Part shown: positions 11,950 through 33,463 of the stretch, piece after piece
Layout of the letters: every line of letters starts with the position of its first letter
How positions within the stretch are numbered: position 1 is the first letter of the stretch
Assembly: GCA_003156805.1 (NCBI GenBank)
Contig: PMHV01000053.1
Location: 24,374-60,157, forward strand
DNA: 35,784 nt
Reading direction: 5' to 3'
DNA from: Acidobacteriaceae bacterium
GTDB taxonomy: Bacteria; Acidobacteriota; Terriglobia; Terriglobales; Acidobacteriaceae
Notes under the pieces: generated by a model
Seen by the model: the letters and a program-made list of their open reading frames with translations, nothing else
What the model was told of the DNA's origin: nothing
Databases searched by the model: none
Made by a program: the position numbers and the translations under genes

Positions 11950-11970
11950 AACCCAGGGCCTGCCTGGGTT
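11950..11970 (-). terminator. Stem-loop just after the GT84 gene, possible terminator
   Basis: Perfect 8-bp arms (AACCCAGG at 11950-11957 and CCTGGGTT at 11963-11970) flank a 5-nt loop and begin at the last base of the stop codon. On the minus strand the following bases are only moderately T-rich (ATCTCTAATTCTTGC), so this may be a weak terminator or a 3'-end stabilising hairpin between the glucan operon and the VWA gene. Confidence 0.5.
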
Positions 11971-16487: not shown

Positions 16488-16520
16488 GTGCGTTCCCCGA
16501 TACTCGTGCAATCCCGATAG

Positions 16521-18341
16521 TTAGCGATAATTGGCGGCCTGCAACTCAAACATCTCGGCGTAGCGGCCGCCCAGATGAGTCAACTGCTCATGATCTCCGT
16601 CTTCCGCGATGCGGCCGTTCTCAAGAACCACGATTCGGTCGGCCATGCGAACGGTGGAGAACCGGTGCGAAATGAACATGGCCGTTTTCCCGGCGGTCAA
16701 CTCCGCGAATCGCTGAAACACTTCGAATTCGCTGCGGGCATCCAGCGCGGCCGTGGGCTCATCCAGAATCAAGAGTTGCGCCTCGCGCAGGTAAGCTCGC
16801 GCCAGCGCTACTTTCTGCCACTCTCCGCCCGAAAGATCGACTCCGCCGTCAAATCGCCGGCCCAGCATTTGTTCGTACTGGTGTGGCAGTTTTCCGATTA
16901 CTTCGTCCGCCATGCTTTTCTGAGCTGACTGGTGGACAAGCGGAACGTTATCGATTTCCTCGATGCGGCCCACCGCAATATTTTCGCGGGCCGTCATTTC
17001 ATAGCGCATGAAATCCTGAAAGATCACGCCAATCTCGCGGTAAATATCCTCAATGTCATATTCACGCAGGTCGATGCCGTCGAGCAACACCTGTCCCTCA
17101 ACTGGGTCGTACAGCCGGGTAAGCAATTTGACAATGGTGGTTTTGCCTTGCCCGTTTTCCCCGATTAGCGCCACTCGCTCCCTGGGGTGCAGATGAAAAT
17201 TCAGCCCATCGAGAATCAGGCGAGGGCTGCCGGGATAACGGAAAGAGACATTGCGGAATTCAAATCCGTGCACCATCGGCCGCGGCGCCGGCAAGGCATT
17301 CGGTTTCGACTTGATGGTCGGCTGCATCTCGAAAAAGGCAATCAGATCGGTCAGAAAAAGCGCTTGGTCCGCGATGCCGGAAAGGGTCGAAAAACTGAGT
17401 TGAATATTCGCGCTGGCCTGCAAAATTGCGTTCGCGAGAAAGTACAGTGTTCCAAGGCTGAACACTCCGGTCACGGTTCGCCAAACGACAAAGATGTATG
17501 CCGAGTAATAGCCGGCGGTGCTGATAGTCGATAGAAATGAACCACCGATCAGTCGGCGACGGGCGAGACTCACGTCTTCTTCGTAGATTTGGTTGGAAAG
17601 CCCGGCAAATCTTCCGGCGAGGAACTCCCTGAGACCGAAGAGCTTCAGTTCCTTGGCTGCTTCTTTGCTGCCGCCCAGCACGCGCAGGTAATCCAGTTGA
17701 CGGCGGATGGGAGTCTGGCGGAGGTTCTTGGCGTAACCCAGGAATGCGAAGTGAGTCTCGCCCAAGAACGCGGGAACGACTCCTACGATCAGTAGGAGCA
17801 GGAGCCACGGCGAAAACAGCATGATCGAGACGGAAAGAGAGACGGTGGTGATGACTTGCTGAACCAGCCGCCCGATCGACTGGATCATGCCTAAGCGATC
17901 CGTGGCCTGGACCCGGGCACGTTCCAGGCGGTCATAGAAGACAGGATCTTCGTAGGCCAGCAAGTCGAGATCCGCGGCATGACGCATGACCAGGATACTC
18001 ACGTGGCGGGTATACCTGTCTGCGAGCAGGGCATCGAGATAGTCGATGGTACGGCTCAACCCGCTGCTGAACACGGCCAGCGCGAATTCCGCCGCAACCA
18101 GCCACCACAGACTCGTGGGGACGGATTGATGGGTGGTAACGGTGCGCACGATGGAATCGAAGATCAGCTTTGTGATCCATAGCAGTCCGATGGGCAGAAG
18201 CGAGGCAAACAACCGGGAAATCAGACCAAACACGACCACTGCGCGGCCGGACTCCCACACAATGCGCAAGACCGGGGGCACATTGCGAATAGCGGAAAGA
18301 CGTTCCCGCCATCCGGTCCAGAAACTCTGTTTTGCGGTCAT
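16521..18341 (-). CDS. ABC exporter, fused permease and ATPase (half transporter)
   Basis: This 606-residue half transporter starts at ATG 18341. Residues 1-345 contain six membrane segments of an exporter-type permease. Residues about 360-600 form the ATPase: A-loop Tyr in FRYPG, Walker [11 protein letters not shown]-loop VIFQDF, signature LSGGE, Walker B LLILDEP, and switch His in ISHRFST. It would act as a homodimer. It sits between a GH144-like hydrolase and the GT84 synthase, a position that recalls NdvA/ChvA, the cyclic beta-1,2-glucan exporter, though the sequence alone could equally suit a peptide or lipid exporter. The gap to the next gene is short, so co-transcription with the synthase is likely. 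Confidence 0.85.
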
Positions 18342-18426
18342 GAGTCGGTTCCCATAGGGGCTTTGCCCTGGAACTTCGTCTTACCCGAACGACGCGTCCC
18401 GGCGTCAAAGGGGGGTAGATACTAAG

Positions 18427-18456
18427 AGTGTAGATCAACGAAATCCGCTCTAACAA
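18427..18456 (-). promoter_or_regulatory. Possible promoter for the ABC exporter and GT84 genes
   Basis: On the minus strand, TTGTTA (18456-18451) and TACACT (18432-18427) are 18 nt apart, 4/6 matches each, about 85 nt before the ATG at 18341. The 224-nt gap between hydrolase stop and exporter start makes a separate promoter reasonable. No other structure is seen in the gap. Confidence 0.3.
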
Positions 18457-18565
18457 GCTCCGGCCGACGTTCTCGTAAGCATGTTTTGGATGACAGCAAT
18501 CTGATTTCGGTTGGTGTGCAACCGAGCAAGAAATAAGGGAACCGCAATCCGCTTGGCAGCAGCGG

Positions 18566-19900
18566 CTAGTACATGTGGAAGCCGGCTCTTTGCATTCCAC
18601 GTTGCGCTTCGGAAGTTTTCATGAAGGTGTCCCAGACAAAGCCGGTCCGCAGATTTTCCGCCATTAGCATGGTGATCCCGGTATCGATTCCGATCACGTC
18701 GGTGTCGTACCAATTCTTCAAGGGATTGAACGCATTTACGAACCCATACTTGGTCCAGGCCGGGCCGTAGTGGTTTCGGATGTTCCTCAATACGCGCAGC
18801 GTAGCTTCAGGCAGGAACGGCAACGATCCCCCCGTCGCGCTGGGCACCACGGTGCCATCGATCGGTCCCTTGGCTGGCGGACCACCCCAGATGACATAAC
18901 CATGTTCGGAGTCGGAAGCGGTAATTCCCCACAAGTCGTCGCTATAGTCGGGGAACTGCTTCGCCAGTTCCAGGCAAAACCGCTGGTGGACCTCGGTGGC
19001 CACTACCGAATTCTGGAAGTAGTCGGCATACTTGTCGCGCCGGCCGCGAAAATCGAACCAGGCCTGGGAATATTGATGCACAAACAGCGGCGCAAACGAA
19101 CCGATATAGCGCATGCCATCGTATTCAAACGTAAGCCGCTTCCACGCATTCCAGGTTTCGTCCCGCAACGGATGGGCGGAAGACCCCAGGCCGAGCAGGT
19201 ACATCATCATTAATTCGCTGTAGTAATCCCAGCGCGAGGGCAAAAAGCCGAATTCGGGGGTCCATCCATGAGGCAGCAGAGACGTGTCTTCTGACAGCCA
19301 CGTCCAGTCCACGCGGTTGAAGATTAAATCGGCGAGTTGAATCACGTCGGGATGCTGGAAATGCTGCCGGCAGGTAAGGATTCCGCAGAGCAGAATGGCG
19401 GTATCGACCGACGAGACCTCGGAATCCCAAACTCTTTCACCCGTATTGATGTTGGCGAAGTGGTAGAAGAATCCGCGATGATGTGGCAACTTTTTCCAGA
19501 GAAAACGCAACGACGTAAAAGCACGCTCCAGCGCCGCGCTGGTGGAAATAAATCCCCGTTGGTCTCCGATGCAAAGGGCGGTCAGACCGAAGCCGGTGGC
19601 GGCGATGCTGGCGACGATGCCCTCATCGGCGATATGGACGTTGCAACGATCTTTGACCAGCCCCGTCTTAGGGCTGGCTTGCTCCCAAAAATATTGAAAA
19701 TTCGCGATTTCCACATCGTTGAGTAGATGATCATCTTCCGGGGAAAGGGCCGGCATCGCGGCCGTTCCCGGCCTCGCCGATGTCTGGGCTGGAATCGTGA
19801 GCAGAGGCGCGAATTCGACCAACGGCAGGGCGAGCCCCATGCCCAGGAGTTGCCGCACAATCTCCCGCCGCGAGAACTGATTGGGGTCGGCATGTCTCAT
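18566..19900 (-). CDS. Tat-exported glucoamylase-family hydrolase (GH144-like, probable beta-1,2-glucanase)
   Basis: This 444-residue protein starts at ATG 19900 after AAGAAG. Its N-terminus carries a twin-arginine signal (SRREIVRQLLGMGLALPL), so the enzyme is probably folded before export to the periplasm. The mature domain (residues about 55-440) is an alpha/alpha-barrel of the PF10091 glucoamylase type: NFQYFWEQASPKTGLVKDR, then a VWDSEVSSVDTA stretch, SELMMMYLLGLGS, SDSEHGY and GIDTGITMLMAENLR. Characterised relatives include GH144 endo-beta-1,2-glucanases. Being upstream of an ABC exporter and a GT84 synthase on the same strand supports beta-1,2-glucan as substrate; this is inference. 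Cellobiose- or starch-related activity cannot be excluded by eye. Confidence 0.8.
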   Translation of the reverse strand: MRHADPNQFSRREIVRQLLGMGLALPLVEFAPLLTIPAQTSARPGTAAMPALSPEDDHLLNDVEIANFQYFWEQASPKTGLVKDRCNVHIADEGIVASIAATGFGLTALCIGDQRGFISTSAALERAFTSLRFLWKKLPHHRGFFYHFANINTGERVWDSEVSSVDTAILLCGILTCRQHFQHPDVIQLADLIFNRVDWTWLSEDTSLLPHGWTPEFGFLPSRWDYYSELMMMYLLGLGSSAHPLRDETWNAWKRLTFEYDGMRYIGSFAPLFVHQYSQAWFDFRGRRDKYADYFQNSVVATEVHQRFCLELAKQFPDYSDDLWGITASDSEHGYVIWGGPPAKGPIDGTVVPSATGGSLPFLPEATLRVLRNIRNHYGPAWTKYGFVNAFNPLKNWYDTDVIGIDTGITMLMAENLRTGFVWDTFMKTSEAQRGMQRAGFHMY

Positions 19901-21423: not shown

Positions 21424-21798
21424 ATGACAAAAGACCGCCTTGGGGTCGCGGAGCAGCTCATCGTTCGCTCGCAGACCGTCGTCTCGCGGGTCGTGGCCGG
21501 GGAGACGCTGATTGTGCCGGTGCGCGGCAAGGTCGGCGATCTTGCCTCCATCTACCGATTCAACGAAACCGGCTCTTTGATCTGGAAGCTGCTGGAGACC
21601 CCACGGTCCCTGGAAGATTTGGTCGCTGCCGTGGCGGAGGAATATGAAGCGGCGCATGAGCGCGTGGAAAAAGATGTGGCGCAATTCGTGAGCGATATGC
21701 GTTCGGCTGGGTTAGTTGAGGTCCGGTGTTCTGGCATTGTGGCGAACTTGCTTGCGTCGTCGGCGCGGGAAGCAGCCGCCGCAGCGGGCGCGAGATGA
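21424..21798 (+). CDS. PqqD-family peptide chaperone
   Basis: From ATG 21424 the product has 124 residues; the frame extends in frame to GTG 21322, and neither start has a strong ribosome binding site, so the N-terminus is uncertain. The core matches PqqD/RRE-type domains: strands (LIVRSQTVVSRVVAGETLIVPV), the diagnostic YRFNETGSLIWKLLETP, where 'N.tg..iw..l' is the family signature, then helices with a 'T/R-S-L-E-D-L-V...EY' pattern and DVAQFVSDMRSAGLVEV. PqqD proteins bind the leader of a ribosomal peptide and deliver it to a radical SAM enzyme, which here is the next gene, 37 nt downstream. The Ala-rich C-terminal tail of about 20 residues is not part of the usual domain. Confidence 0.85.
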   Translation: MTKDRLGVAEQLIVRSQTVVSRVVAGETLIVPVRGKVGDLASIYRFNETGSLIWKLLETPRSLEDLVAAVAEEYEAAHERVEKDVAQFVSDMRSAGLVEVRCSGIVANLLASSAREAAAAAGAR

Positions 21799-21835
21799 AA
21801 TCACATCTGCTGTCGGCAGAAGGATTCGAGGGGTC

Positions 21836-23098
21836 ATGGATCAGCTAACGTACGGCGAATTCAGCGCTGACCTGCATCAGCGCCAGTCCGGCGAGCGCGT
21901 ACCCATGCAGGTTTCGATTGAAGTCACCCGCCGTTGTCCCCTGGAGTGCCAGCACTGTTACAACAATCTGCCCATGGGCGACCAGGAAGCTCGCAGCCGC
22001 GAAATGACCACAGAAGAGCATTTCCGCATGTTGGACGAGTTGGTCGACATGGGCTGCTTCTGGCTTCTCTACACCGGCGGCGAGATTTTCGCCCGTAAGG
22101 ATTTTCTCGAGATTTACACCTACGCCAAGAAGAAAGGGTTTCTGATTACCCTCTTCACCAACGGCACGCTCATTACGCAAAAGATTGCGGACTATCTGGT
22201 GGAATGGCCGCCCTTCGCCATCGAGATCACTTTGTACGGGCGCAGCAAAGAGACCTATGAGCACTTGACGCAGGTCCCGGGCTCGTACGAAAGATGCCTG
22301 CGAGGAATCAAGTTGCTGCGCGAAAGAGGGCTGCCGCTCAAGTTGAAGACGGTGGCCACCAGCATCAACAAGCATGAAATCTCCGCGATGCGGCACTTCG
22401 CTGAGGAAGAGTTAGGGGTGGAGTTCAAGTTCGACGGTCAGATTAATCCTCGCATCGACTGCTCGCAAAGTCCGCTGGCGGTGCGCCTTACGCCGGAAGA
22501 GGTAGTTGCGTTGGATATGCATGCCCCGAAAGGCGTGAGCGAATACCGCAGGCTGGCGAAGCACGACCTGGAGAATCCCCCGAACCTCGCGAGAAACGAC
22601 AGCATTTATTTCTGCGGCGGAGGCATAAATTCGTTTGCCATCAATGCCTATGGAGAGATGGGCATTTGCGTGATCTCTCAGCAGGAGACTTTCCGTGTTC
22701 AAGAAGCCGGACTGAGGCGGGTTTGGGAGGAGTCTCTTTTGCAGTTGCGAACGCGCAAGCGCACGCGTGTGACGAAATGCATCGCCTGCCGCATTCAGTC
22801 GCTCTGCGGGATGTGTCCGGCAAACGGCGAAATGGAAAACGGCGACCGCGAGAGTCCTGTCGAGTTTCTTTGTAATGTCGCGCATCTGCGAGCGGCGGTC
22901 ATCGGAACCGAGGTTGCAGTACATGGAGAGTGCGAGTTCTGCTCTGGAGGAAGTGAGCACGATGCGTTGCTGGAGTCGGCGCGCCGGATTACTAGCAAGG
23001 AGATCGATGTTGAAAGTTGGACGGGGCCTCAGCAAGCCTTTCAGATTTTGAACAACGGGAGCGTGACCGCGGGCTGCGGAAGCTGCGGTGGCCACTGA
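21836..23098 (+). CDS. Radical SAM/SPASM peptide-modifying enzyme
   Basis: The start is ATG 21836 (420 residues), with GAGGGG just upstream. The radical SAM motif is C34-X3-C38-X2-C41 (RRCPLECQHCYNN), which holds the 4Fe-4S cluster that cleaves S-adenosylmethionine; a GGE motif (YTGGEIF) and barrel strands follow to about residue 230. The SPASM region begins with C260 (YFCGGGINSFAINAYGEMGICV) and continues with C315, C318, C324 and C327 (CIACRIQSLCGMC) and a later FLCN, enough to bind auxiliary clusters. Such enzymes make thioether or C-C crosslinks in peptides. Neighbours are a PqqD upstream and a three-Cys peptide 24 nt downstream, the likely substrate. The C-terminal tail (HGECEFC near 355-370 and a terminal CGSCGGH) is an unusual extra Cys/Gly extension. 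Confidence 0.9.
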   Translation: MDQLTYGEFSADLHQRQSGERVPMQVSIEVTRRCPLECQHCYNNLPMGDQEARSREMTTEEHFRMLDELVDMGCFWLLYTGGEIFARKDFLEIYTYAKKKGFLITLFTNGTLITQKIADYLVEWPPFAIEITLYGRSKETYEHLTQVPGSYERCLRGIKLLRERGLPLKLKTVATSINKHEISAMRHFAEEELGVEFKFDGQINPRIDCSQSPLAVRLTPEEVVALDMHAPKGVSEYRRLAKHDLENPPNLARNDSIYFCGGGINSFAINAYGEMGICVISQQETFRVQEAGLRRVWEESLLQLRTRKRTRVTKCIACRIQSLCGMCPANGEMENGDRESPVEFLCNVAHLRAAVIGTEVAVHGECEFCSGGSEHDALLESARRITSKEIDVESWTGPQQAFQILNNGSVTAGCGSCGGH

Positions 23099-23122
23099 CG
23101 TATAGCAAGGACTGGGGGCTGA

Positions 23123-23296
23123 ATGGACCACGACTTAAACCAAGCCGACGGCAAGAAGCCGTACGAGCCACCGCAACTGACAACGATCAGCCTACGCCCA
23201 GAAGAGGCGGTTCTGGGGCATTGCAAGACCTCTGGGTCTGGAGGTCCTATCGGCAGTTGTTCGCCACTGGGAACCTGCCCGAACTCGGGGTCATAG
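23123..23296 (+). CDS. Putative modified-peptide (RiPP-like) precursor, 57 residues, three cysteines
   Basis: ATG 23123 follows a GGGGG stretch by 4 nt, in a gap that would otherwise be 230 nt between two cassette genes. Residues 1-31 look like a leader: polar start, then KKPYEPPQLTTISL and RPEEAVLGHCK. Residues 33-57 are core-like: Gly, Ser, Pro and three Cys at 34, 46 and 52 (CK..GSGGPIGSC, then PLGTC and a Gly-Ser end). The 'K-P-Y-x-x-P-x-L' start resembles recognition sequences in several PqqD/RRE-dependent peptides. Placement between the radical SAM gene and a kinase-like gene makes it the obvious substrate. Thioether crosslinking of the Cys residues and phosphorylation of Ser/Thr are possible fates, not shown. 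It has no transmembrane segment and no Sec signal. Confidence 0.8.
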   Translation: MDHDLNQADGKKPYEPPQLTTISLRPEEAVLGHCKTSGSGGPIGSCSPLGTCPNSGS

Positions 23297-23328
23297 GGGT
23301 ACACGTGAATTCATGCGTAGAAGGAGAA

Positions 23329-24273
23329 ATGAGTGATGATTCGGCTCCTGCGCCGCCGGGTCGCGTCGCTGCCTGTTCCACCTGGTTTCATGTCGGGGGA
23401 GTTTCTGTGCGGGTGGTCGGCGAGCATAGTGCCGACCTTAATTTGGACGCAACGCTCCAGCCGTTTCGGGTCGAGTCGCGAGGCTGCGATATCGAAATTC
23501 GGGTGCGATGGGTGGGTAAACTTCCTCAATCACGGCAACGTCAGCTTTTCGATTCCGGATGCGTCTGGAAGCTGTACGAGAGCGGAGGCGGGTTTCAATT
23601 CGATTTCGGCACGGCGGGCCTGGGCGGCGTGCCCTATAAAAGGCTTCTGGTAGATGGGCGATTCCGCAGCGCTTCGCTTCTGCTGAGCCGCGAGAGTTTC
23701 GGGAATCGCGAGCCTGCGATTCCGCTTGAGTACCCGCTGGATGAGCTCCTGATCATGCATCGGCTCACGCAAGAGAGAGCCATCGAGCTGCATGGGGTTG
23801 GCATCGTCGGCCCAGACGGCGCGAGCAACCTGTTTGTCGGGCATTCCGGGGCGGGCAAGAGTACGACGGCGCGGCTGTGGACCTCGCTGCACGAGATAAA
23901 GATCCTGAGCGACGACCGGATCATAGTTCGTGAAGACAAGGTTCGAGAATATCCGCTTCGCGAGCATGCAAACCAAATCTTCATGTACGGAACACCGTGG
24001 CATGGGGAGGCCCATTTCGCTTTGCCCGAGCGCGCTCCGCTACAACGAATCTTCGTTCTGGAGCATGGGCATGGCAATGTGATTACGCGTCTCTCGCCGA
24101 GCCATGCGGTCGGAGAATTGTTTGCGCGCAGCTTTGTTCCGTTTCACCGGCACGAGTATGTGGACTCCGCGTTGAGCTTTCTGGAGCACGTTGCGGATTC
24201 AGTCCCTTGCTATCGCTACTCTTTCGAGCCCGACGAACGCGCGGTGGAGAGGGTCCTCAATTTCCGTGAATGA
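23329..24273 (+). CDS. HPr-kinase-like P-loop protein (HprK-related) of the peptide cassette
   Basis: ATG 23329 gives 314 residues; AAGGAG lies only 2 nt upstream, so GTG 23305 in the same frame (AGGGG 5 nt before it) is an alternative. Residues 1-150 form an unassigned alpha/beta N-terminal region with 'FRVESRGCDIEIRVRW'. Residues about 155-310 resemble the C-terminal kinase domain of HPr kinase/phosphorylase: P-loop GHSGAGKSTT (171-180), then ILSDDRIIV (acidic pair) and HGEAHFALPERAPLQRIFVLEHG. The family's HPr-specific lid motif is not evident. Such HprK-related proteins recur beside PqqD and radical SAM genes, where they are thought to act on a peptide or small molecule instead of HPr. 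It overlaps the next gene by 8 nt. Confidence 0.8.
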   Translation: MSDDSAPAPPGRVAACSTWFHVGGVSVRVVGEHSADLNLDATLQPFRVESRGCDIEIRVRWVGKLPQSRQRQLFDSGCVWKLYESGGGFQFDFGTAGLGGVPYKRLLVDGRFRSASLLLSRESFGNREPAIPLEYPLDELLIMHRLTQERAIELHGVGIVGPDGASNLFVGHSGAGKSTTARLWTSLHEIKILSDDRIIVREDKVREYPLREHANQIFMYGTPWHGEAHFALPERAPLQRIFVLEHGHGNVITRLSPSHAVGELFARSFVPFHRHEYVDSALSFLEHVADSVPCYRYSFEPDERAVERVLNFRE

Positions 24274-27200
24274 TCTTGTGACTCGCGACTGCCCGGAGTC
24301 GAAGCAGTTTGAATCCTTCGTTGTTGAATGCCTGGGCGCCGGACTCCGGGTTCGCTTTCAGGCCCGCGGAGCCAGTATGTCTCCCGCGATACGCGACGGA
24401 GAAATGGTTTATGTAAGACCTGCTTCTGGAGTGAACTTGCGCAAAGGAGACATCGTTCTGCTAAAGGGCGACCATGGATTCCGCCTGCATCGGTTGGTAG
24501 TTGCCGATGCCGTACGGAACGTCTTCATCACGCGCGGAGACTGCGGCCAGCAAGATGATTCAGCGGTGCAAGGCGAGCAAATACTGGGCGTCGCGGTAGC
24601 CAAAGAAGTACGAGTCGGAAGAAGAATCGTGCGCACGAAACTGAAAGGAATGGGCGGCAGATTGTTGCGTGGCGTAGCGCGGGGACAATCGGTGGCAAGC
24701 AAGCTCTTACGCGTGGCAGGACTACCGCGGCCATCGCGCGCAACGGCACCGAGCCCATTGTCGTCGCAGCCCAGGCGCGAAGGGGCGCGCAATCTTCTCG
24801 GAACCTTGGGCCTACTGCTCGTTTTGCTGGCCGCGCCGTATTTGCGCGCGCAGGTCGCGGTTGACGCCGAGACGAACTTTGGGGCCGAGCTGAAAGGCAT
24901 GGGCACAGAGACCCTCACCTTCAACCATACGACGACCACCACAGCGAATCGATTGCTGATTGTCGGCGTTTCCCTGAACATTACCAGCGCCACCGCAACT
25001 GCTTTAGTTGGTGTCACGTATAACGGCACGGCGCTGAGTTTCGTAGGAGCTCACAACGACGCAGGGAGCACGCGCCGCGTGGAAATGTGGTCTCTGCTCA
25101 ATCCGGCTTCCGGGACCAATCTTGCAATCGTCGTATCAGCAAACATCCCGGTTACCCAGACCGTGGGTGTTGTTGCCGGAGCCGTTACCTTCACAGGCGT
25201 TGATCAGACCGTACCCTTGGGATCATTCGTGTCGGCGGACGGCGCTGCCGGCGCTAACTCACAACTCGATGTGCCCAGCGTGGTGAACGGGATGGTCTTA
25301 GACACGCTGGCGGTTGGCGGAAATCGGACTCTTACTGTGCCGGGGCCGCAGGTCTCCGAATGGAATTTGGCCACGACCCCCACCCACGGAGCGAGCGCCG
25401 ACCCTCCCGACGTGACCGGCAGCGGGAGCGCTCGCACAGGCGCGCCCAGCGTGCCGATTTCGGAGACCTTCAGCGGCAATTCCAACTGGTCACTCGGAGC
25501 CCTGTCGATCAATCCCACGGCGGCCGATATCGGAGTCACTACCAGCGTCGGCAGCGCAGTCTTCCTCGGATCGAGCACAACCTACACCATCACGGTTTTC
25601 AACAATGGAACCTCTGCGGCGAATGGCGTCACCCTGTCCGACACTCTGGCTTCGGGAATGACGCTGGTTAAGGTGACTCCAAACACGTGTGTCACTACTA
25701 CGAACCCGATCACCTGCACAATCGGCACGCTGGCTAGCGGAGCAAACGCGACTGTCACCGTTGTGGAAACCGCCGGCGCGTCGGGATCTTACGCTAATAC
25801 CGCAGTTGTTTCCGATTCCGGCACGCCGCCCGATCCGAACACGGGCAACAATACCTACGTAGCGGTTGCGACCGTGCAGGCGGTTGCTTGCGCGGGTGTT
25901 TCACAGGCCTCGGCGGGAAACAACCTGACGGGCGTTCTAAATACCTACTATCCGGGAACGGCCGGGGTCGCTGCGGCGGCAACCTCGATTCCGGTAGGGA
26001 CGGCGACGGGAGCAGGATCTGCAATCGCCGCCGGGAATCTTTTGCTGGTGATCCAGATGCAGGATGCCAGCATCAAAGACTCCAACAACGTTGCTTACGG
26101 CAACGGCAGCACCGGCCAGGGATTCACGTTGCTGAACAGCGCTGGGAACTATGAGTTCGTTACAGCGACGGGTGCAATCAGCAGCGGCTCGGTTCCTATA
26201 GCAGGAGCAGGGCTGGGCGGAGGATTGGTCTTTGCGTATCACTCGGCTGCAGCCTCTGCGACCGCGGGACAGAGCACCTACCAGGTGGTTGTGGTGCCGC
26301 AGTACACCACTGCCTCGTTCAATTCGACCACGCCGCCGACGGCGCTCGCCTGGAATGGTTCCACTGGGGGAGTGCTGGCCCTAGATACTTCGAGCACGCT
26401 GACTCTAAACGGCGCAACCGTGTCGGTGAGCGGACAAGGCTTTCGCGGCGGCGCGGGACTGCAACTGGATGGAGGCGTCGGAGGCGCCAATACGGACTAC
26501 CTTCACGCTGCTCCGGCCGCCTATACCGGCGTGGTGGAGAACGGCGTGGATGCTGTGAAGGGCGAAGGAATTGCGGGCACTCCTTTGTGGGTTGAGTCGG
26601 GTGGAACTTATGTGCCCGGAAACAGCAGCTATCCGAGCGGCACGACTGGTGCCGATGGCAGCAGTGCCCGCGGCGCGCCGGGCAACGCGGGCGGCGGCGG
26701 CACCGATGGCGATCCATTGGCCAACGATCAGAACGCTGGTGGCGGTGGTGGCGGCAACGGTGGCGCTGGAGGTTTTGGCGGGGACTCGTGGAACACGAAC
26801 CTGAGCGTCGGCGGCGAGGGTGGCGCGGTTTTTCCGGCAACGATAAATCGCGTCGCGATGGGTGGTGGTGGCGGCGCGGGTACACGGAACAACTCCGATG
26901 GCGACACTCAGGCCAGCGGTGGCGCGGCGGGAGGCGGCATTCTCATCATTCGCACCTACGCGCTCAGCGGCACGGCCACGCTCACAGCCAACGGAGTCTC
27001 CGCCTACAACGGCACGGCCAATGATGCCGGTGGCGGTGGCGGAGCCGGCGGCAGCATCGTGGTTCTCTCCGCTAACGGCGGCGAAAGCGGCTTGACCCTG
27101 CAAGCAAATGGTGGGAACGGCGGCGATGCGTGGGCCTCCCAGGCGTACAGTCTGGCGAATCGTCACGGACCGGGCGGCGGCGGTGGTGGCGGCATTGTGT

Positions 27201-30200
27201 TGGTTTCGGGTGCGCCTGCGGGCATCAGCGTGACTGGTGGTGCATCGGGACTCACGCTCAACACGCCCAGTGTCGCCTATGGCTCAACCCCTGGCGCTGC
27301 CGGCACCAGCGCAACCAACGCGACCATCTCGCAAACTTCGGGCACGCAATCCGGCGCGCAATGTACTCCAGACATGACGCTGGGCAAAAGCCACGTAGGA
27401 AATTTTGTGCGCGGCTCGACCGCGACTTACACCATTCCGGTTTCGAATTTGAGTCCGTACGGCCCCACCAACGGCACGGTCACGGTCGATGACACATTGC
27501 CCTTCGGTCTTACCCCCACCAGTGCCAGCGGCACTGGTTGGTCGTGCTCGATTGCGTTGCAAACCGTGAGTTGCGTGGATTCGACGGTCCTAGCAGCAAA
27601 CAGCGGCTATCCCTCAATCACGATCACTGCGAGCGTGGCGCAGACGGCACCTTCCACGGAAACCAACACCGCGTTAGTGAGTGGCGGAGGCGAGATCAAC
27701 CTCTCAAACGACAGCGCCACCGACGTAGCGACAGTCGTTTCCAGCGCCGACTTGAGCGTCACCAACGCTGGGTCGCCGAACCCTGTGGCGGCCGGCAGCA
27801 CCATTACGTATACCCAGGTGGTTAGCAACAACGGACCCAGTGCCGCGGACAACGCCACGCTCGTATCGACGATTCCCGCGAACACTACGTTTGTTTCCCT
27901 TGCGGCTCCGTCGGGTTGGAGTTGTATCACCCCAGTGGTGGGCTTCACGGGCAACGTTGTCTGCAGCAATTCCGATTTGGCGGGTTCGATGGCCGCCACT
28001 TTCTCCATCGTGGTCAAAGTAACTACAGGCACGGCAAACGGAACCGTGATCACCGAAACCGCGTCCGTGAGTTCCTCAGCAAGCGATCCGAATTCCACCA
28101 ACAACACGGCGAACGCATCCACGGTGGTGGGAAGTACTTCTCAGGCGGAGATGACGGTCACGAATTCGGCCTCGCCCGATCCTGTGATTGCGGGTAACAA
28201 CATTACTTATACGCAGACCGCCACCAACGTGGGCAGCGTCGCGGCCAACAATCCAACGCTGAGCGAGAATACTCCAACCAACACAACATTTCAGTCGATC
28301 TCCGCCCCCCCGGGAACCACGTGCACAACGCCGGCCGTCGGCGGAACCGGTGCGATAACCTGCACTGCCGGGTCTGCTCCAGCGGGTTCGAGTGGGACGG
28401 TGCTGCTCGTCGTGCAAGTCGCGTCCGGCACCGCCAGCGGAACGGTCATTTCCGACACCGCTACAGTCAACGCCGGAAACCAGGCTTTCGGCGCCAATTC
28501 TGCCACCGCCACAGACGTTGTTGCCTCAGCCACTCAGGCCGATCTGGCGCTGAGCACGGCGGCCACGCCTCCCAATCTGCTGGCTGGGAACAACATCACC
28601 TACACCCAAACCGTTACCAACAACGGCCCCGCTGCTGCCTCGTCGGTGAGCTTTACTGAGGCTATTCCAACCAATACCACATTCCAATCTGTCTCCGCGC
28701 CGGTGGGCTGGTCCTGCACCACACCGGCGGTGGGCGCGACCGGCACTGTGAATTGCACGGATTCAAGCCTGGCCGCAAGCGCCTCTGCGGACATCATCGT
28801 GGCCGTCAATGTGGCCTCGTCGGTAACGGCAGCGACCATCACCGCCAACTCTTCGGTGTCTGCCAGCACCACCGATCCTAACTCAGCCAACAACAGCACG
28901 ACGGTGGTCACAAATGTTGCCACCGCTTGCGATCTGGCCGTGACCAACAGCGGCACGCCGAGTCCGGTGACCGTCGGCAACACTATTACTTATACTCAGG
29001 TCGTGACCAACAGCGGTCCCAGCAATTGCGCTGGCGCCACCTTCACCGAAGCCATTCCAACCAACACTACATTTGTCTCACTCACGCCCGTTCCCACGGG
29101 ATGGACTTGCACAACCACAGGTTCCATCAGTTGCTCGAATCCCACCGTGGCTCCGGGTTCCACCAGCACATTCACAGTTGTGGTGAAGGTAACCGGCGGA
29201 ACCCTCATCACCGACACCGCCACCGTGGCAACCACCACGCACGACACCAGCAGCAGCAACAATTCCGCCACCGTGACGATCGGCGTGGCGACCGCGACTC
29301 AGGCGGACTTGAGCGTGACCAACTCGGCCAGCCCAAATCCAGTCTCGGCAGGCAGCAACATCACTTATACCCAGACTGTCGCCAATGCCGGGCCGGCCAG
29401 CGCGAGCACAATCACTCTTACCGAAACAACTCCGGCGAACACTACCGCGCAGTCGCTGACCGGGCCTGCGGGATGGACCTGCAACGTAGGAACCCTTACC
29501 TGCACGATTGCTACCCTCGTGGCCAATGCCAGCGCGAACTTCACTTTCGTGGTAAAGGTGAATGTCGGCACGACTTCCGGTTCGACCATCACGCAGACGG
29601 CGTCGGTTGCGTCTAGCGTCACCAGCGATCCAAATACTGGCAACAACAGCGCATCGGCCAGCGTGGTGGTCGGGAATTCGGCCGACTTGTCCGTGTCGAA
29701 TTCCGCAAGTCCGGTGCCCGTGCTCGCGGGTAACAACATTTCCTACATTCAGACGGTCACGAATGCCGGCCCGAGCGCGGCGACCAACGCCACTTTCACC
29801 GAGCAAACGCCACCCAATACGGTGTTCTTTTCTTTGGCCTCGGTGCCGAGCGGTTGGGCGTGTTCTCATCCGGCCGCTAATTCTGCCGGAACCATCACTT
29901 GCACCGACACAAGCTTTGCCCCGGGAACGGCGAGTTTTCCGGTTGTGCTCACCGTGAACGCAGGCACCGCCGACGGAACCGTGATCAACGACACGGCCAG
30001 CGTGAGTTCATCCACCACCGACCCCAACAGCGCGAACAACACCTCCACTGCCTACGATGTGGTCGCCAAGTCGACGGATGCCGACCTGGCAACCACGAAC
30101 TCGGCATCGCCCACCTCAGTCGCGGCGGGAAGCAACGTCACCTACACACAGAGCCTTACCAATAATGGACCGGCCGCTGCTGCCGCCGCCACTTTCACGC

Positions 30201-33200
30201 AAACCACTCCGCCGAACACAAGCTTCCAGTCCATCACGGCTCCGGCGGGCTGGACCTGCACGACGCTAGCCGTAGGAGCTGCGGGAACAATCACCTGCAC
30301 CGATGGTAATACCCTGGCGGTAAATGGCACTGCAAACTTCTCTCTGGTCTTGCAGGTAAATGCAGCGACCGCATCGGGCACGAACATTGCCGAGACTGCC
30401 ACGGCCACAGCCGGCAACATGGTTCCGAATCTGACAACCAATACCGCCACGGCCACGGTTGTGGTTGCCAATGCCAATAGCGCGGACATAGCAATTGTGA
30501 AAAGCGCGACGCCGAGTCCGGTGGCCCAGGGCGACACCATCACTTACACGCTGACCGTTACCAATAATGGTCCGGCGCAGGCAACTAACGTGACTGCCAC
30601 CGATACTTTGCCTTCGTCCGTCACTTATCAAAGCGCGATTCCGAAAAGTGAGTGCTCGGAAGCGGGCGGGACTGTCACGTGCCTCCTCGGAACCATGGCA
30701 AATGCTGCTACGGCCACGGTTACAATCCTCACGCTTGCCGGTACGCCGGGGCAGGTTACGAATACGGCTATGGTTAGTGCGGATCAGACCGACCCCAACA
30801 CGAACAACAATTCTTCGTCGCAAACGGTTACGATCACCGCTCCCACCAAAATCCAGTTGCACTCCTTTGCTGCGCAAAAGGGCAAAGATAAGACCGATGC
30901 AAACCGGGTGATCTTGTCCTGGAAGACGGCCGGCGAAGCGCATAACCTCGGCTTCAACATCTACCGCGAACAGAACGGGCTGCGCCTGCGCCTGAATCCT
31001 TCCTTGATTGCCGGATCGGCGCTGCTGATGCGCGGAGCGTTGCCCAAACACACGGCGAGATCCTACGCGTGGATCGATTCGTCGCCGGCTGCTGGCAGCG
31101 GCACGTATTGGCTGGAAGACGTCGATATCAACGGAACGCGCACCCTGCACGGACCTGTCGCGGCAGATGGTTCGGCGAGCACGCAGCAGGGGAATTCAGC
31201 AATCCCGTCTGCGGCACGAATGCTGAGTCAACTGAACCAGGCGCAGCCGGCGTCTAGTTCTGGCGAAATGAGCCATCCGGTTGAAAGTGCGTTGCAAGAA
31301 TTTTCATCCACGTCCGCCCAGCAGCAGAAACAGTTCGAACTGGCCGGCCAGCCTGCGGTGAAGATTTTTGTGAAACACGAAGGCTGGCATCATCTGACAC
31401 AGCCAGAGTTGGTGAAGGCTGGGGTGGATCCTGATGTCGATCCGGCGTTGCTCCATCTTTATGCCGAGGCGATTGAGCAACCCATGCAGATCACCGGCGC
31501 CACAGCGGGACCGGGAGGCTTCGGGCCGCAAGCCGCCATCAATTTCTACGGAACCGGAATCGACACGCAATACACAGGCACGAGAGTGTACTGGCTGGTC
31601 GCCGAAGACGGGCCTGGCGCTCGCATTCAGCAATTGCCGCTGTCAACCGGCTCGAACCAACCTCCTGCCAGCTTCCCGTTCGCGGTCGAGTTACAGCCGC
31701 ACACAATCTACTTCGCGGCGCTGATCACACACGGCGGCGAAAACTATTTCGGGCCGCTGATCTCAACCACGGCGATTCAAGAGGTTGTGCATGTGCCCCA
31801 CCTGGACAAGACCTCGACGGCGCCGGCAACGCTTGAACTCGTTCTGCAAGGAATTATTTTGGGAATTCCGCACGACGTGGCCGTTACCCTGAACGGCATC
31901 TCCCTCGGAGACTTAACTTTCACAGGCCAGAGCAAAGGACGACTCCGTATGAATCTGCCTGCGGGTACGCTGCAAGATGGGGACAACACCTTCACGCTCA
32001 CGGCACAAAACGGAGAGTACGACACCAGTCTACTGGATTACATCCGGGTTGTGTATCCACATTCCTACGCGGCTGACTCCGATGAGTTGAAGTTCAGCGG
32101 TCGTGCAGGCGATGAGTTGAAGATCACAGGTTTCGACAGCGCCGAAGCGACCGTGCTCGACATCACCGATCCCGACCGGCCGGTGGAACTTACGCCACAG
32201 ATCACACAGCAGGCGACGCAGTCTGCTTCAAAGACCAGCCAGTACGAATTGGCCTTGGAGGTGCCATGGTCGACCACAAATTCATCGAATCCAACATTGC
32301 ACACGCTCCTGGCTGTGGCCGAAGACCGGGTGCTTTCCGCCGCTGCAGTTCGAGGGAACCATCCCTCGCACTGGCACAGCCCGCAACCCGGCAGCGAGAT
32401 TGTGATGGTTTCGCACGAAGATTTCGCCGCTGCTTTGGCGCCGCTGGTGCGTGCGCATCAGGCGCAGGGCCAGTCGACGGCGGTGGCATTAATCACCGAC
32501 CTCTACGACGAATTCACCTTCGGTGAACACAATCCCTATGCGATCCGCCAGTTCCTGAAAACCGCAACCAAGGCTTGGCGCACCGCTCCCAGGTATTTGC
32601 TGCTCAATGGCCGGGCGTCGGTTGATCCGCGGAATTATCTGGGTTTCGGCCACCTTGATTTCGTGCCCACGAAAATCGTGCCCACTCCGATCCTCATGAC
32701 GGCCTCCGACGATTGGTTCTCCGATTTCAGCGACCACAACCTGCCCACAATCGCCACCGGACGCTTTCCGGTGAGCAGCGCAGAAGAAGCGCAGACGGTG
32801 ATCGGCAAAGTAGTAGCCTACGAAGGCCAATCGACGAACGGACCCTGGACCGGACAGGCTTTGATGGTTGCCGATAGAAACGACACGGAGAACTTTACGC
32901 AAGATAGCGAGGCGGTACAGGCTGAATTGCCGGCGTCGTTGCAGGTGACCGATGTCTTCGCCAGCACCATGACGACAGCTCAGGCTCAGCAACAGATTCT
33001 CGATTCCATCAACTCTGGACAGTTGCTGGTCAACTATATGGGCCACGGCTCCGAGGACGAATGGTCCGGGGATGATCTGTTCGACAACACGACTGTGCCA
33101 TTGCTGACCAATGGAACGCGCACGCCGGTATTCTTCATCATGGACTGCCTGAACGGTTTCTTTCAGGATGTGTACGACCAGCCCTTGGGAGTGACTCTAT

Positions 33201-33463
33201 TGCTGGCGCCGAACGGCGGCGCAGTGGCGGTGCTGGCTTCGAGCGGATTGAATCAGTCACCCCCGCAGACCAATCTCGATAAACTGGTAGTTGAAAACGC
33301 ACTTAAGCAGGCGGCTCTGACACTGGGCGACTCGATTCTCAAGGCAAAGTCCCAAATCAGCGACGCCAGCGTGCGGAAAACCTTCGTGTTGCTCGGCGAT
33401 CCAGCCATGCAGATCAAGTCCCCGGCTACGAATACATCGGCTCAGCAGGGTAGGGCAAAATAG
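24266..33463 (+). CDS. Giant fusion protein: S26B signal-peptidase-like domain, DUF11 repeats, C-terminal gingipain-type (C25) protease
   Basis: GTG 24266 overlaps the kinase-like gene's stop and gives 3065 residues. Residues about 25-125 are an S26B/SipW-type peptidase: Ser37 in ASMSP, His75 in RLHRLV and Asp97/98 after FITRGDC. A basic linker and a signal-peptide-like hydrophobic stretch (about 174-195) follow. Then come a concanavalin-like beta domain (to about 415), one DUF11-like repeat, a Gly-rich domain (about 540-1030), nine more DUF11-like repeats of about 130 residues (to about 2190), an Fn3-like piece, and beta domains like the N-terminal part of C25 proteases. The protease domain ends the protein: His2927 in NYMGHGS and Cys2961 in IMDCLNG match the gingipain dyad. 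Most of it must be extracytoplasmic. An internal start (for example ATG 24649) could yield the secreted part separately. No sorting signal is seen. Confidence 0.8.
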   Translation: MNDLVTRDCPESKQFESFVVECLGAGLRVRFQARGASMSPAIRDGEMVYVRPASGVNLRKGDIVLLKGDHGFRLHRLVVADAVRNVFITRGDCGQQDDSAVQGEQILGVAVAKEVRVGRRIVRTKLKGMGGRLLRGVARGQSVASKLLRVAGLPRPSRATAPSPLSSQPRREGARNLLGTLGLLLVLLAAPYLRAQVAVDAETNFGAELKGMGTETLTFNHTTTTTANRLLIVGVSLNITSATATALVGVTYNGTALSFVGAHNDAGSTRRVEMWSLLNPASGTNLAIVVSANIPVTQTVGVVAGAVTFTGVDQTVPLGSFVSADGAAGANSQLDVPSVVNGMVLDTLAVGGNRTLTVPGPQVSEWNLATTPTHGASADPPDVTGSGSARTGAPSVPISETFSGNSNWSLGALSINPTAADIGVTTSVGSAVFLGSSTTYTITVFNNGTSAANGVTLSDTLASGMTLVKVTPNTCVTTTNPITCTIGTLASGANATVTVVETAGASGSYANTAVVSDSGTPPDPNTGNNTYVAVATVQAVACAGVSQASAGNNLTGVLNTYYPGTAGVAAAATSIPVGTATGAGSAIAAGNLLLVIQMQDASIKDSNNVAYGNGSTGQGFTLLNSAGNYEFVTATGAISSGSVPIAGAGLGGGLVFAYHSAAASATAGQSTYQVVVVPQYTTASFNSTTPPTALAWNGSTGGVLALDTSSTLTLNGATVSVSGQGFRGGAGLQLDGGVGGANTDYLHAAPAAYTGVVENGVDAVKGEGIAGTPLWVESGGTYVPGNSSYPSGTTGADGSSARGAPGNAGGGGTDGDPLANDQNAGGGGGGNGGAGGFGGDSWNTNLSVGGEGGAVFPATINRVAMGGGGGAGTRNNSDGDTQASGGAAGGGILIIRTYALSGTATLTANGVSAYNGTANDAGGGGGAGGSIVVLSANGGESGLTLQANGGNGGDAWASQAYSLANRHGPGGGGGGGIVLVSGAPAGISVTGGASGLTLNTPSVAYGSTPGAAGTSATNATISQTSGTQSGAQCTPDMTLGKSHVGNFVRGSTATYTIPVSNLSPYGPTNGTVTVDDTLPFGLTPTSASGTGWSCSIALQTVSCVDSTVLAANSGYPSITITASVAQTAPSTETNTALVSGGGEINLSNDSATDVATVVSSADLSVTNAGSPNPVAAGSTITYTQVVSNNGPSAADNATLVSTIPANTTFVSLAAPSGWSCITPVVGFTGNVVCSNSDLAGSMAATFSIVVKVTTGTANGTVITETASVSSSASDPNSTNNTANASTVVGSTSQAEMTVTNSASPDPVIAGNNITYTQTATNVGSVAANNPTLSENTPTNTTFQSISAPPGTTCTTPAVGGTGAITCTAGSAPAGSSGTVLLVVQVASGTASGTVISDTATVNAGNQAFGANSATATDVVASATQADLALSTAATPPNLLAGNNITYTQTVTNNGPAAASSVSFTEAIPTNTTFQSVSAPVGWSCTTPAVGATGTVNCTDSSLAASASADIIVAVNVASSVTAATITANSSVSASTTDPNSANNSTTVVTNVATACDLAVTNSGTPSPVTVGNTITYTQVVTNSGPSNCAGATFTEAIPTNTTFVSLTPVPTGWTCTTTGSISCSNPTVAPGSTSTFTVVVKVTGGTLITDTATVATTTHDTSSSNNSATVTIGVATATQADLSVTNSASPNPVSAGSNITYTQTVANAGPASASTITLTETTPANTTAQSLTGPAGWTCNVGTLTCTIATLVANASANFTFVVKVNVGTTSGSTITQTASVASSVTSDPNTGNNSASASVVVGNSADLSVSNSASPVPVLAGNNISYIQTVTNAGPSAATNATFTEQTPPNTVFFSLASVPSGWACSHPAANSAGTITCTDTSFAPGTASFPVVLTVNAGTADGTVINDTASVSSSTTDPNSANNTSTAYDVVAKSTDADLATTNSASPTSVAAGSNVTYTQSLTNNGPAAAAAATFTQTTPPNTSFQSITAPAGWTCTTLAVGAAGTITCTDGNTLAVNGTANFSLVLQVNAATASGTNIAETATATAGNMVPNLTTNTATATVVVANANSADIAIVKSATPSPVAQGDTITYTLTVTNNGPAQATNVTATDTLPSSVTYQSAIPKSECSEAGGTVTCLLGTMANAATATVTILTLAGTPGQVTNTAMVSADQTDPNTNNNSSSQTVTITAPTKIQLHSFAAQKGKDKTDANRVILSWKTAGEAHNLGFNIYREQNGLRLRLNPSLIAGSALLMRGALPKHTARSYAWIDSSPAAGSGTYWLEDVDINGTRTLHGPVAADGSASTQQGNSAIPSAARMLSQLNQAQPASSSGEMSHPVESALQEFSSTSAQQQKQFELAGQPAVKIFVKHEGWHHLTQPELVKAGVDPDVDPALLHLYAEAIEQPMQITGATAGPGGFGPQAAINFYGTGIDTQYTGTRVYWLVAEDGPGARIQQLPLSTGSNQPPASFPFAVELQPHTIYFAALITHGGENYFGPLISTTAIQEVVHVPHLDKTSTAPATLELVLQGIILGIPHDVAVTLNGISLGDLTFTGQSKGRLRMNLPAGTLQDGDNTFTLTAQNGEYDTSLLDYIRVVYPHSYAADSDELKFSGRAGDELKITGFDSAEATVLDITDPDRPVELTPQITQQATQSASKTSQYELALEVPWSTTNSSNPTLHTLLAVAEDRVLSAAAVRGNHPSHWHSPQPGSEIVMVSHEDFAAALAPLVRAHQAQGQSTAVALITDLYDEFTFGEHNPYAIRQFLKTATKAWRTAPRYLLLNGRASVDPRNYLGFGHLDFVPTKIVPTPILMTASDDWFSDFSDHNLPTIATGRFPVSSAEEAQTVIGKVVAYEGQSTNGPWTGQALMVADRNDTENFTQDSEAVQAELPASLQVTDVFASTMTTAQAQQQILDSINSGQLLVNYMGHGSEDEWSGDDLFDNTTVPLLTNGTRTPVFFIMDCLNGFFQDVYDQPLGVTLLLAPNGGAVAVLASSGLNQSPPQTNLDKLVVENALKQAALTLGDSILKAKSQISDASVRKTFVLLGDPAMQIKSPATNTSAQQGRAK
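26640..27230 (+). repeat. Gly-rich low-complexity coding segment
   Basis: Within the giant protein, runs of GGC/GGT codons encode clusters such as GGGGGNGGAGGFGGDSW, GGGGGAGTRN and GPGGGGGGGIVLVSG, interleaved with strand-like 'ILIIRTYALSGTATLTANG' units. This is the sort of beta-helix with glycine turns seen in large adhesins. It also produces long meaningless antisense frames. Confidence 0.7.
27364..30840 (+). repeat. Tandem DUF11-type repeat array (nine units of about 375-400 bases)
   Basis: Units begin near 27364, 27748, 28146, 28537, 28929, 29304, 29680, 30080 and 30482. Most open with 'ADL.vt.sasP.pv.aG..itYtq.vtN.Gp' and close with 'DpNs.NN.a...vv'. A tenth, isolated unit lies at about 25521-25900. 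DUF11 domains are Ig-like spacers in surface proteins. The similarity is mostly at the protein level; units are diverged in DNA, so the array is old. Confidence 0.85.

Follow-up and report, generated by a model that had tools for sequence, protein, structure and literature searches.

The stretch of DNA analysed here, which we call the window, is the 35,784-nucleotide interval G000:C23:24374-60157 of an Acidobacteriaceae genome (assembly of 5.03 Mb in 75 contigs, 95.12% complete), and the system in question is a compact five-gene cassette on its forward strand. Read directly, the cassette encodes, in this order, a PqqD-family protein of 124 residues (ATG at 21424, stop at 21798), a radical S-adenosylmethionine (radical SAM) enzyme of 420 residues (ATG at 21836, to 23098), a 57-residue peptide (ATG at 23123, to 23296), an HPr kinase (HprK)-like protein of 314 residues (ATG at 23329, to 24273) and a fifth open reading frame (ORF) opening with GTG at 24266. 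The order, the strand, the gaps of 37, 24 and 32 nt and the 8-nt overlap are exactly those given by an earlier note on this DNA, which had proposed a new pathway for a ribosomally synthesized and post-translationally modified peptide (RiPP). For the fifth gene the note had seen an S26B-type peptidase domain; this domain does stand at the start, but the product is no free peptidase, since the frame runs on to 33463 and ends in a Peptidase C25 domain. We refer to the window-type cassette and its peptide as type A, and to a paralogous second cassette of the same genome as type B.

The 57-residue peptide (23123..23296; Cys34, Cys46, Cys52 and C-terminal Ser57) matches no Pfam or NCBIfam family, and so short a frame could be a chance ORF with the real substrate encoded elsewhere. 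We give this idea next to no weight and reject it on the following grounds. A genome scan with the radical SAM enzyme yielded 31 named related loci, all from Acidobacteriota and several from genomes called Candidatus Sulfotelmatobacter; the peptide gene precedes the HprK-like gene in 30 of them, and the 31st, L062, is cut inside the radical SAM gene. PqqD, HprK-like and S26 matches occur in 29, 30 and 28 of the 31 loci, the misses coinciding with contig ends, and in L035 about 2 kb separate the radical SAM gene from the peptide gene. A protein search with the peptide returned 631 homologues, the best 120 of which were listed and read; together with the peptides of the loci they make 151 distinct sequences, and YxxP, EEA(V/I)LGxCK and a C-terminal Ser are common to all 151. 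Across 33 distinct DNA copies, the block from the Tyr of YxxP to CK shows proportions of synonymous and nonsynonymous differences of pS 0.683 and pN 0.128, and the last six codons 0.721 and 0.304 (all uncorrected and pooled over pairs). The Ser57-equivalent codon is TCG, TCA, TCC or TCT in 12, 10, 7 and 4 of the 33. Because it is present in 30 of 31 loci and conserved at the protein level, the peptide is a real gene under protein-level selection, synonymous change being saturated and amino-acid changes few. The earlier note had called for a search for the peptide in other genomes and had named loss of the frame, or its conservation at the DNA level only, as grounds for giving it up; the search turned up the opposite of both.

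Several features of the peptide are nearly fixed. The YxxPxL leader motif (Y14-L19; 23162..23179), a motif defined in PMC13381572 and bound by RiPP recognition elements (RREs), has its Tyr and Pro at fixed positions, -20 and -17 relative to the first core Cys, in 151/151 peptides. The block EEAVLG (residues 27-32; 23201..23218), the likely zone of leader cleavage, is exact in 150 of 151, and the last Cys stands 5 residues before the end in 146. Exactly three Cys are found in 134 peptides and more in 17, while 149 end in Gly-Ser. Downstream of the first Cys, Trp is absent and D, E, R, H and Y make up at most 0.2% of residues each.

The cassette reaches well beyond these relatives. The radical SAM enzyme is matched at E<=1e-40 in 34 of 150 near genomes (own included; four of them at only 30-32% identity) and at E<=1e-100 in 18 of 396 genomes sampled across the phylum (own included). 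Because only these 18 carry it, and the 17 others all belong to families other than that of the window, the distribution is patchy. We took 18 stretches from 16 of those 17 genomes (G268 excluded; G528 and G491 contributing two each) and sought their peptides next to the radical SAM or HprK-like gene by tblastn and by a YxxP pattern that made no demand for a C-terminal Ser, choosing by eye among many pattern matches (the L144 peptide by pattern only). A full peptide is present in 17 of the 18, L151 running off its contig. The YxxP Tyr is placed 20 residues ahead of the first Cys in 17/17, the third Cys 5 before the end in 16/17, EEAVLG recurs in 13/17, and the last residue is Ser in 15 and Thr in 2. 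Gene order varies: in L146 the peptide and HprK-like genes are divergent from those for PqqD and the radical SAM enzyme, and in L138 the S26 gene comes before that for the HprK-like protein. Three cassettes, L138, L144 and L152, are themselves divergent: their radical SAM enzymes are 47-49% identical and their sequence blocks are altered, for example to LVLQESVMMVCK. G528 carries L138, and G491 carries L144, as a second copy; the L138 peptide ends in Thr.

The earlier identification of the first gene product (21424..21798) as PqqD is borne out by PF05402 at 65.7 bits, above cut-off, and its nearest relatives in the PDB are 9x8z (E 3.3e-6), 9x90 and TbiB1. According to Popov et al. 2026 (PMC13381572), 9x8z is the LppB-LppA leader complex and 9x90 is PbaB1 with leader, and in LppB the residues N33, D70 and F74 contact the leader, binding being weakened by N33A and D70A. 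These residues align with N47, D84 and F88 of the window protein (the numbering of the paper and that of the chain are 18 apart throughout, a shift that also fits the other pocket residues named there). Over the letters present in an alignment of 46 sequences (45 type A, 1 type B), N47 is N in 42/45, D84 is D in 44/44 and F88 is F in 36/44. With predicted leader-gripping residues conserved on the protein and a matching YxxP motif on the peptide, the PqqD-type protein reads as a discrete RRE, and it is highly likely to bind this leader.

The radical SAM enzyme (21836..23098) matches PF04055 at 74.3 bits, above cut-off, and has PqqE and SkfB among its PDB relatives. Among 30 aligned copies, 29-30 retain CxxxCxxC and the SPASM-like Cys; the one gap belongs to the broken copy L061, in which the frame is cut and one residue ambiguous, apparently through real decay or an assembly error. 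The pattern CX17C with Gx4C, then CX2CX5CX2C and C, has the SPASM form expected of the sactipeptide/ranthipeptide class; the SPASM motif usually has CX3C. We consider it very likely that this enzyme modifies the peptide. Beyond the SPASM set lie two extra CxxC pairs, at residues 366/369 (22931-22942) and, C-terminally, 414/417 (23075-23086), which are kept in 29/30 aligned copies, the exception being a broken one, and constitute a possible added metal site. A PqqD, a SPASM-type radical SAM enzyme, a small peptide and a peptidase would also suit the synthesis of a cofactor or redox mediator akin to pyrroloquinoline quinone (PQQ) or mycofactocin, the more so as the N half of the enzyme resembles PqqE and the mycofactocin radical SAM enzyme. 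However, core length and Cys spacing differ between copies, unlike a fixed cofactor, and the same genome holds a separate PQQ-type operon on contig C46; we reject assignment to PQQ and judge a cofactor pathway of any such kind very improbable.

The type B cassette lies on contig C65 (L068:2829-8609) and comprises a 909-aa ORF with no Pfam match, a 56-aa peptide, a standalone S26 protein, an HprK-like protein, a PqqD and a radical SAM enzyme. Its peptide has two Cys, the motif KKPYEKPGF..FVTSALSCGK and a C-terminal Ser, and the FxT before SALS resembles, by analogy, the cleavage site FET|A reported in PMC13381572 for linear polyphosphorylated peptides (LPPs). In 15 longer type B loci (our own and 14 chosen among matches) all five cassette parts are present in 15/15 and the 909-aa ORF in 10/15. 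The peptides of these loci were picked with a pattern demanding a C-terminal Ser and are excluded from the following count: of 159 type B homologues found, the best 120 listed all end in Ser (120/120).

The HprK-like protein (23329..24273) has the HprK/PEPCK (phosphoenolpyruvate carboxykinase) superfamily fold and a P-loop, and 18 of 32 members of its group match Hpr_kinase_C, the window copy not being one of them. The terminal residue is Ser in 151/151 type A and 120/120 listed type B peptides, and Ser or Thr in the distant type A set. Because the precursors of both types have a terminal Ser and are encoded next to one and the same type of kinase, which is our main ground, we propose that the HprK-like enzyme phosphorylates the C-terminal Ser (Ser57; codon at 23291..23293), an assignment that we hold to be somewhat favoured. 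The same site is known from lasso peptides, where earlier-reported phosphorylations were all on the C-terminal Ser of the precursor (PMC10368454).

The fifth ORF spans 3065 aa from GTG 24266 to 33463 with no stop. Its N-terminal S26B/archaeal-type signal-peptidase-like domain (24266..24655) has its best profile matches in SEC11C (1.9e-6) and SEC11A; it scores 33.0 bits with TIGR02228 (E 5e-8; below the cut-off of 51.85) and 26.1 bits with Peptidase_S24 when a 189-aa N-terminal piece is used (cut-off 23.3; 21.2 in the full ORF). The S26B catalytic residues are present as S37, H75 and D92, invariant in 27/27 sequences and of the same triad type as S29/H68/D93 of LppS (PMC13381572). In structure comparison, an AF2 model of the domain (pLDDT 87.1) gives a weak match to SpsB (E 8.6e-4) and scores about as well against LexA-type folds. 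A hydrophobic, signal-peptide-like junction follows at 24794..24852 (LLGTLGLLLVLLAAPYLRAQ; found by direct reading, with equivalents in the open relatives). Beyond it lies a presumably exported region (24833..32401) composed of an AgmC_N-like part, 10 DUF11 stretches (PF01345, 501.7 bits) and a PorU-like pre-domain, with NF047640 and NF033707 below their cut-offs; the C-terminal C25 peptidase also resembles PorU, at 240.8 bits vs a cut-off of 420. The closing Peptidase C25 domain, of gingipain/PorU type (32402..33412; PF01364 E 1.3e-76, 258.7 bits vs a cut-off of 23), carries the His/Cys dyad motifs GHG and DCxNG 34 residues apart.

The fusion is a recurrent arrangement. The S26 frame stays open into the exported region in 26 of 28 sequences (27 relatives and the window), and a single closed ORF contains both the S26 motif and the His/Cys motifs of C25 in 13 of 15 longer downstream stretches. 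The C25 dyad is found in the window and in 14 of these 15, the C25 ORF of L112 being without an S26-pattern match. Two frames are apparently broken, or misassembled: L046, whose fused ORF is interrupted by a stop at residue 515, and L034 (8476-8856), with stops in S26. Distant genomes carry S26 and C25 as two genes, often neighbours, the C25 ORF following S26 directly on the same strand in 5 of 11 cases (L139, L145, L147, L149, L150), and because of this the fusion can be read as a Rosetta-stone link between the two. The S26-like ORF of L152 (444 aa stop to stop) continues, by reading, into an acetyltransferase-type-like domain and is another possible fusion.

The presence of C25 genes follows the cassette. 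Taking the two 396-genome draws, one for each scan, to be identical, we find a C25 gene in 16 of 18 cassette genomes vs 118 of 378 others (Fisher p 1.2e-6, which is not a strict probability, the genomes being related). The single C25 match of our own assembly is that of the giant ORF. In 13 of the 18, that is, in 13/13 of those whose contig goes on, the radical SAM gene has a C25 gene no more than 11 kb away: G000, G188 (on the other strand), G224, G241 (across the record start, if circular), G268, G310, G321, G396, G416, G428, G435, G489 and G528. In the other five (G177, G350, G360, G408, G491) the contig ends less than 5 kb downstream of the radical SAM gene, and G360 and G408 have no C25 match anywhere in the genome. 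These patterns make a functional coupling of the cassette to C25 likely, whatever its exact role.

Based on the above data, we propose, with a probability of roughly 0.72, that the cassette is an RRE-guided RiPP pathway combining radical SAM (thioether) modification with a phosphate on the C-terminal Ser/Thr, S26B-type leader removal and coupling to an exported C25 protein. The RiPP-type cassette posited by the earlier note is thus strongly supported, through the gene set, the RRE motif and a precursor conserved across the phylum; the giant C25 fusion, the C-terminal Ser/Thr, the second cassette and the LPP family had escaped it. In the proposed mechanism, PqqD would bind the leader and present the peptide to the radical SAM enzyme, which would crosslink the Cys of the Gly/Ser-rich core into thioethers of the sacti- or ranthi-type. 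The HprK-like enzyme would phosphorylate the invariant C-terminal Ser/Thr. The S26 domain, anchored at the inner membrane face by the hydrophobic segment that follows it, would then probably remove the leader, presumably near EEAVLG. Finally, the exported C25 part may act on, or be served by, the released peptide. One may speculate further, with little confidence, that the crosslinked and C-terminally phosphorylated peptide is made specifically for the exported PorU-like C25 protease or ligase, that one polypeptide couples leader removal at the inner membrane face to export of the giant, and that outside the cell C25 is activated by the peptide, trims it or attaches it to the giant surface protein.

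A number of observations weigh against this proposal. The modification chemistry is a prediction from sequence, the SPASM Pfam score of the radical SAM enzyme (14.5 bits) is below cut-off, and the conserved cassette shows no exporter. The fusion fails in 2 of the 28 sequences (early stops in L034; an end at aa 154 in L058), the six longest ORFs of L113 (G070) contain neither the S26 nor the C25 motif, the distant S26 ORFs examined are closed on their own and unfused to C25 in 11/11 cases, and C25 genes also occur in the 118 sampled genomes without the cassette. The window copy of the kinase-like protein has no Pfam HprK match at E<=0.1, Hpr_kinase_C included, its sequence match to HprK is weak (1jb1, E 0.0059), and its closest solved folds, among the matches listed, are PEPCKs; no HPr kinase chain appears among the 50 matches listed in either comparison, which we do not count as evidence against. 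Moreover, the phosphate of LPPs is on core Ser3 (PMC13381572), and the kinase BsfK acts on Ser3 and not on the C terminus (PMC10368454). The pathway might therefore be a RiPP pathway without C-terminal phosphorylation, in which the protein with the HprK/PEPCK fold uses ATP as an accessory factor or targets a different residue, the C-terminal Ser being conserved for some other purpose such as recognition by C25 or the radical SAM enzyme. We regard this as unlikely, if the most serious of the alternatives, in view of two separate cassettes that pair this kinase type with an invariant C-terminal Ser, the two exceptions seen being Thr. The invariance of this residue in two precursor families makes the kinase question directly testable.

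The closest published systems are the LPP clusters, which comprise an RRE, an HprK kinase, an archaeal-type signal peptidase, a nucleoside triphosphate (NTP) transferase and an MsbA transporter, and for which RRE-assisted S26-like leader cleavage and HprK-type Ser phosphorylation were shown (PMC13381572). Like these, the window cassette has a discrete RRE, a YxxP leader motif, a putative kinase of the HprK/PEPCK superfamily and, beside the RRE, an archaeal-type signal peptidase with Ser/His/Asp and SEC11 relatives, although TIGR02228 stays below cut-off, and it has no macrolactam cyclase. Unlike them, it has a radical SAM enzyme, a three-Cys core, a C25 giant fused to the peptidase and a host in the Acidobacteriota; the term "radical SAM" is absent from the main text of that paper, where LPPs are described as Bacillota-restricted. 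A plain LPP cluster with an acquired radical SAM gene would account for the shared parts, but radical SAM and C25 recur together with the cassette, and neither an NTP transferase nor an MsbA-like transporter is among the five cassette proteins scanned with Pfam. An MsbA-like gene in the window (16521-18341, other strand) is unmatched in the 31 named loci at E 1e-20, many of which hold less than 6 kb upstream. Nor is the LPP leader YxxPxVLxHQxIxFETxxS reproduced: type A has YxxPxL and then ISLRPEEAVLG, with no HQxIxFET, and type B only FVT/FET. We thus do not file the cassette as LPP, and consider its origin as such a cluster rather improbable.

Other comparisons are looser. Phosphorylated lasso peptides (paeninodin, ThcoK/SyanK type) share the RRE type, YxxPxL, a kinase and, in earlier-reported substrates, the C-terminal Ser, and an HPr kinase occurs in some lasso clusters (PMC4289311); the window RRE matches NF033536 at E 2.6e-10 and 40.3 bits, below the cut-off of 80. 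In contrast to lasso clusters, the macrolactam synthase and B2 peptidase are absent among the window proteins scanned by Pfam, and a radical SAM enzyme is present instead. Sactipeptides and ranthipeptides share the SPASM-type radical SAM enzyme, the RRE and Cys in a Gly/Ser-rich core, whereas the window cassette has a putative kinase, a predicted S26 leader peptidase and a C25 partner, no exporter having been seen; its thioethers are only predicted. The SynChlorMet cassette (NCBIfam TIGR04248-04251) likewise has PqqD-like, radical SAM and ScmC-like parts (ScmC E 1.1e-3) but, as the model names ScmE and ScmF imply, two radical SAM enzymes vs one; scores for ScmC, ScmD and ScmE (18.3 of 125, 23.6 of 100 and 90.4 of 400 bits) fall far below the family cut-offs and we reject this assignment, as we do the HPr-rel-A system (PqqD_rel_X 17.9 bits vs a cut-off of 35). 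In its workings the cassette resembles the front end of an LPP or lasso pathway whose output goes to a radical SAM enzyme.

The earlier note had named no defined product for this architecture. We found no paper on the gene set in open-licence literature, a statement confined to that literature, although the search led to the related LPP paper, and the portions of PMC7470986, PMC12710340, PMC10352776 and PMC4289311 covered here mention no such set. To the RRE/HprK/S26 module described from Bacillota (PMC13381572), the present cassettes add a radical SAM enzyme, a three-Cys precursor and an exported C25 protease, and they place RRE/HprK/S26-type cassettes in several Acidobacteriota families. It is unusual for a leader peptidase to be joined to a giant exported protease. 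Taken together, the evidence indicates a type of modified peptide not described before, with a chemistry and a role that are now accessible to experiment.

The limits of the system can be drawn from its neighbours. At E 1e-20, none of the five upstream genes tested is matched in the 31 named loci, bar one 27% ABC match (L112), and downstream, DAHP synthase is kept in 8/15 and NuoN in 7/15 of the longer stretches. Because the upstream genes are unmatched and the downstream ones partly kept, the conserved unit runs from PqqD through the giant ORF, with a shared genomic place in part of the genus. Scans for promoters and terminators gave 0 and 3 matches, not above shuffled sequence, and Rfam at gathering score gave 0 matches in the window. 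On C46, the region L069 (G000:C46:126000-138000) holds an apparently ordinary PQQ operon, with a PqqD match among ORFs that by reading are PqqB-, PqqC- and PqqE-like. The NdvB-like, MsbA-like and glycoamylase neighbours, unmatched in the named loci, were rejected as members of the system; they occupy 11970-19900 on the reverse strand, where an NdvB-like giant (named by reading), the MsbA-like ABC transporter and a Glycoamylase-domain protein (PF10091) perhaps form a glucan locus.

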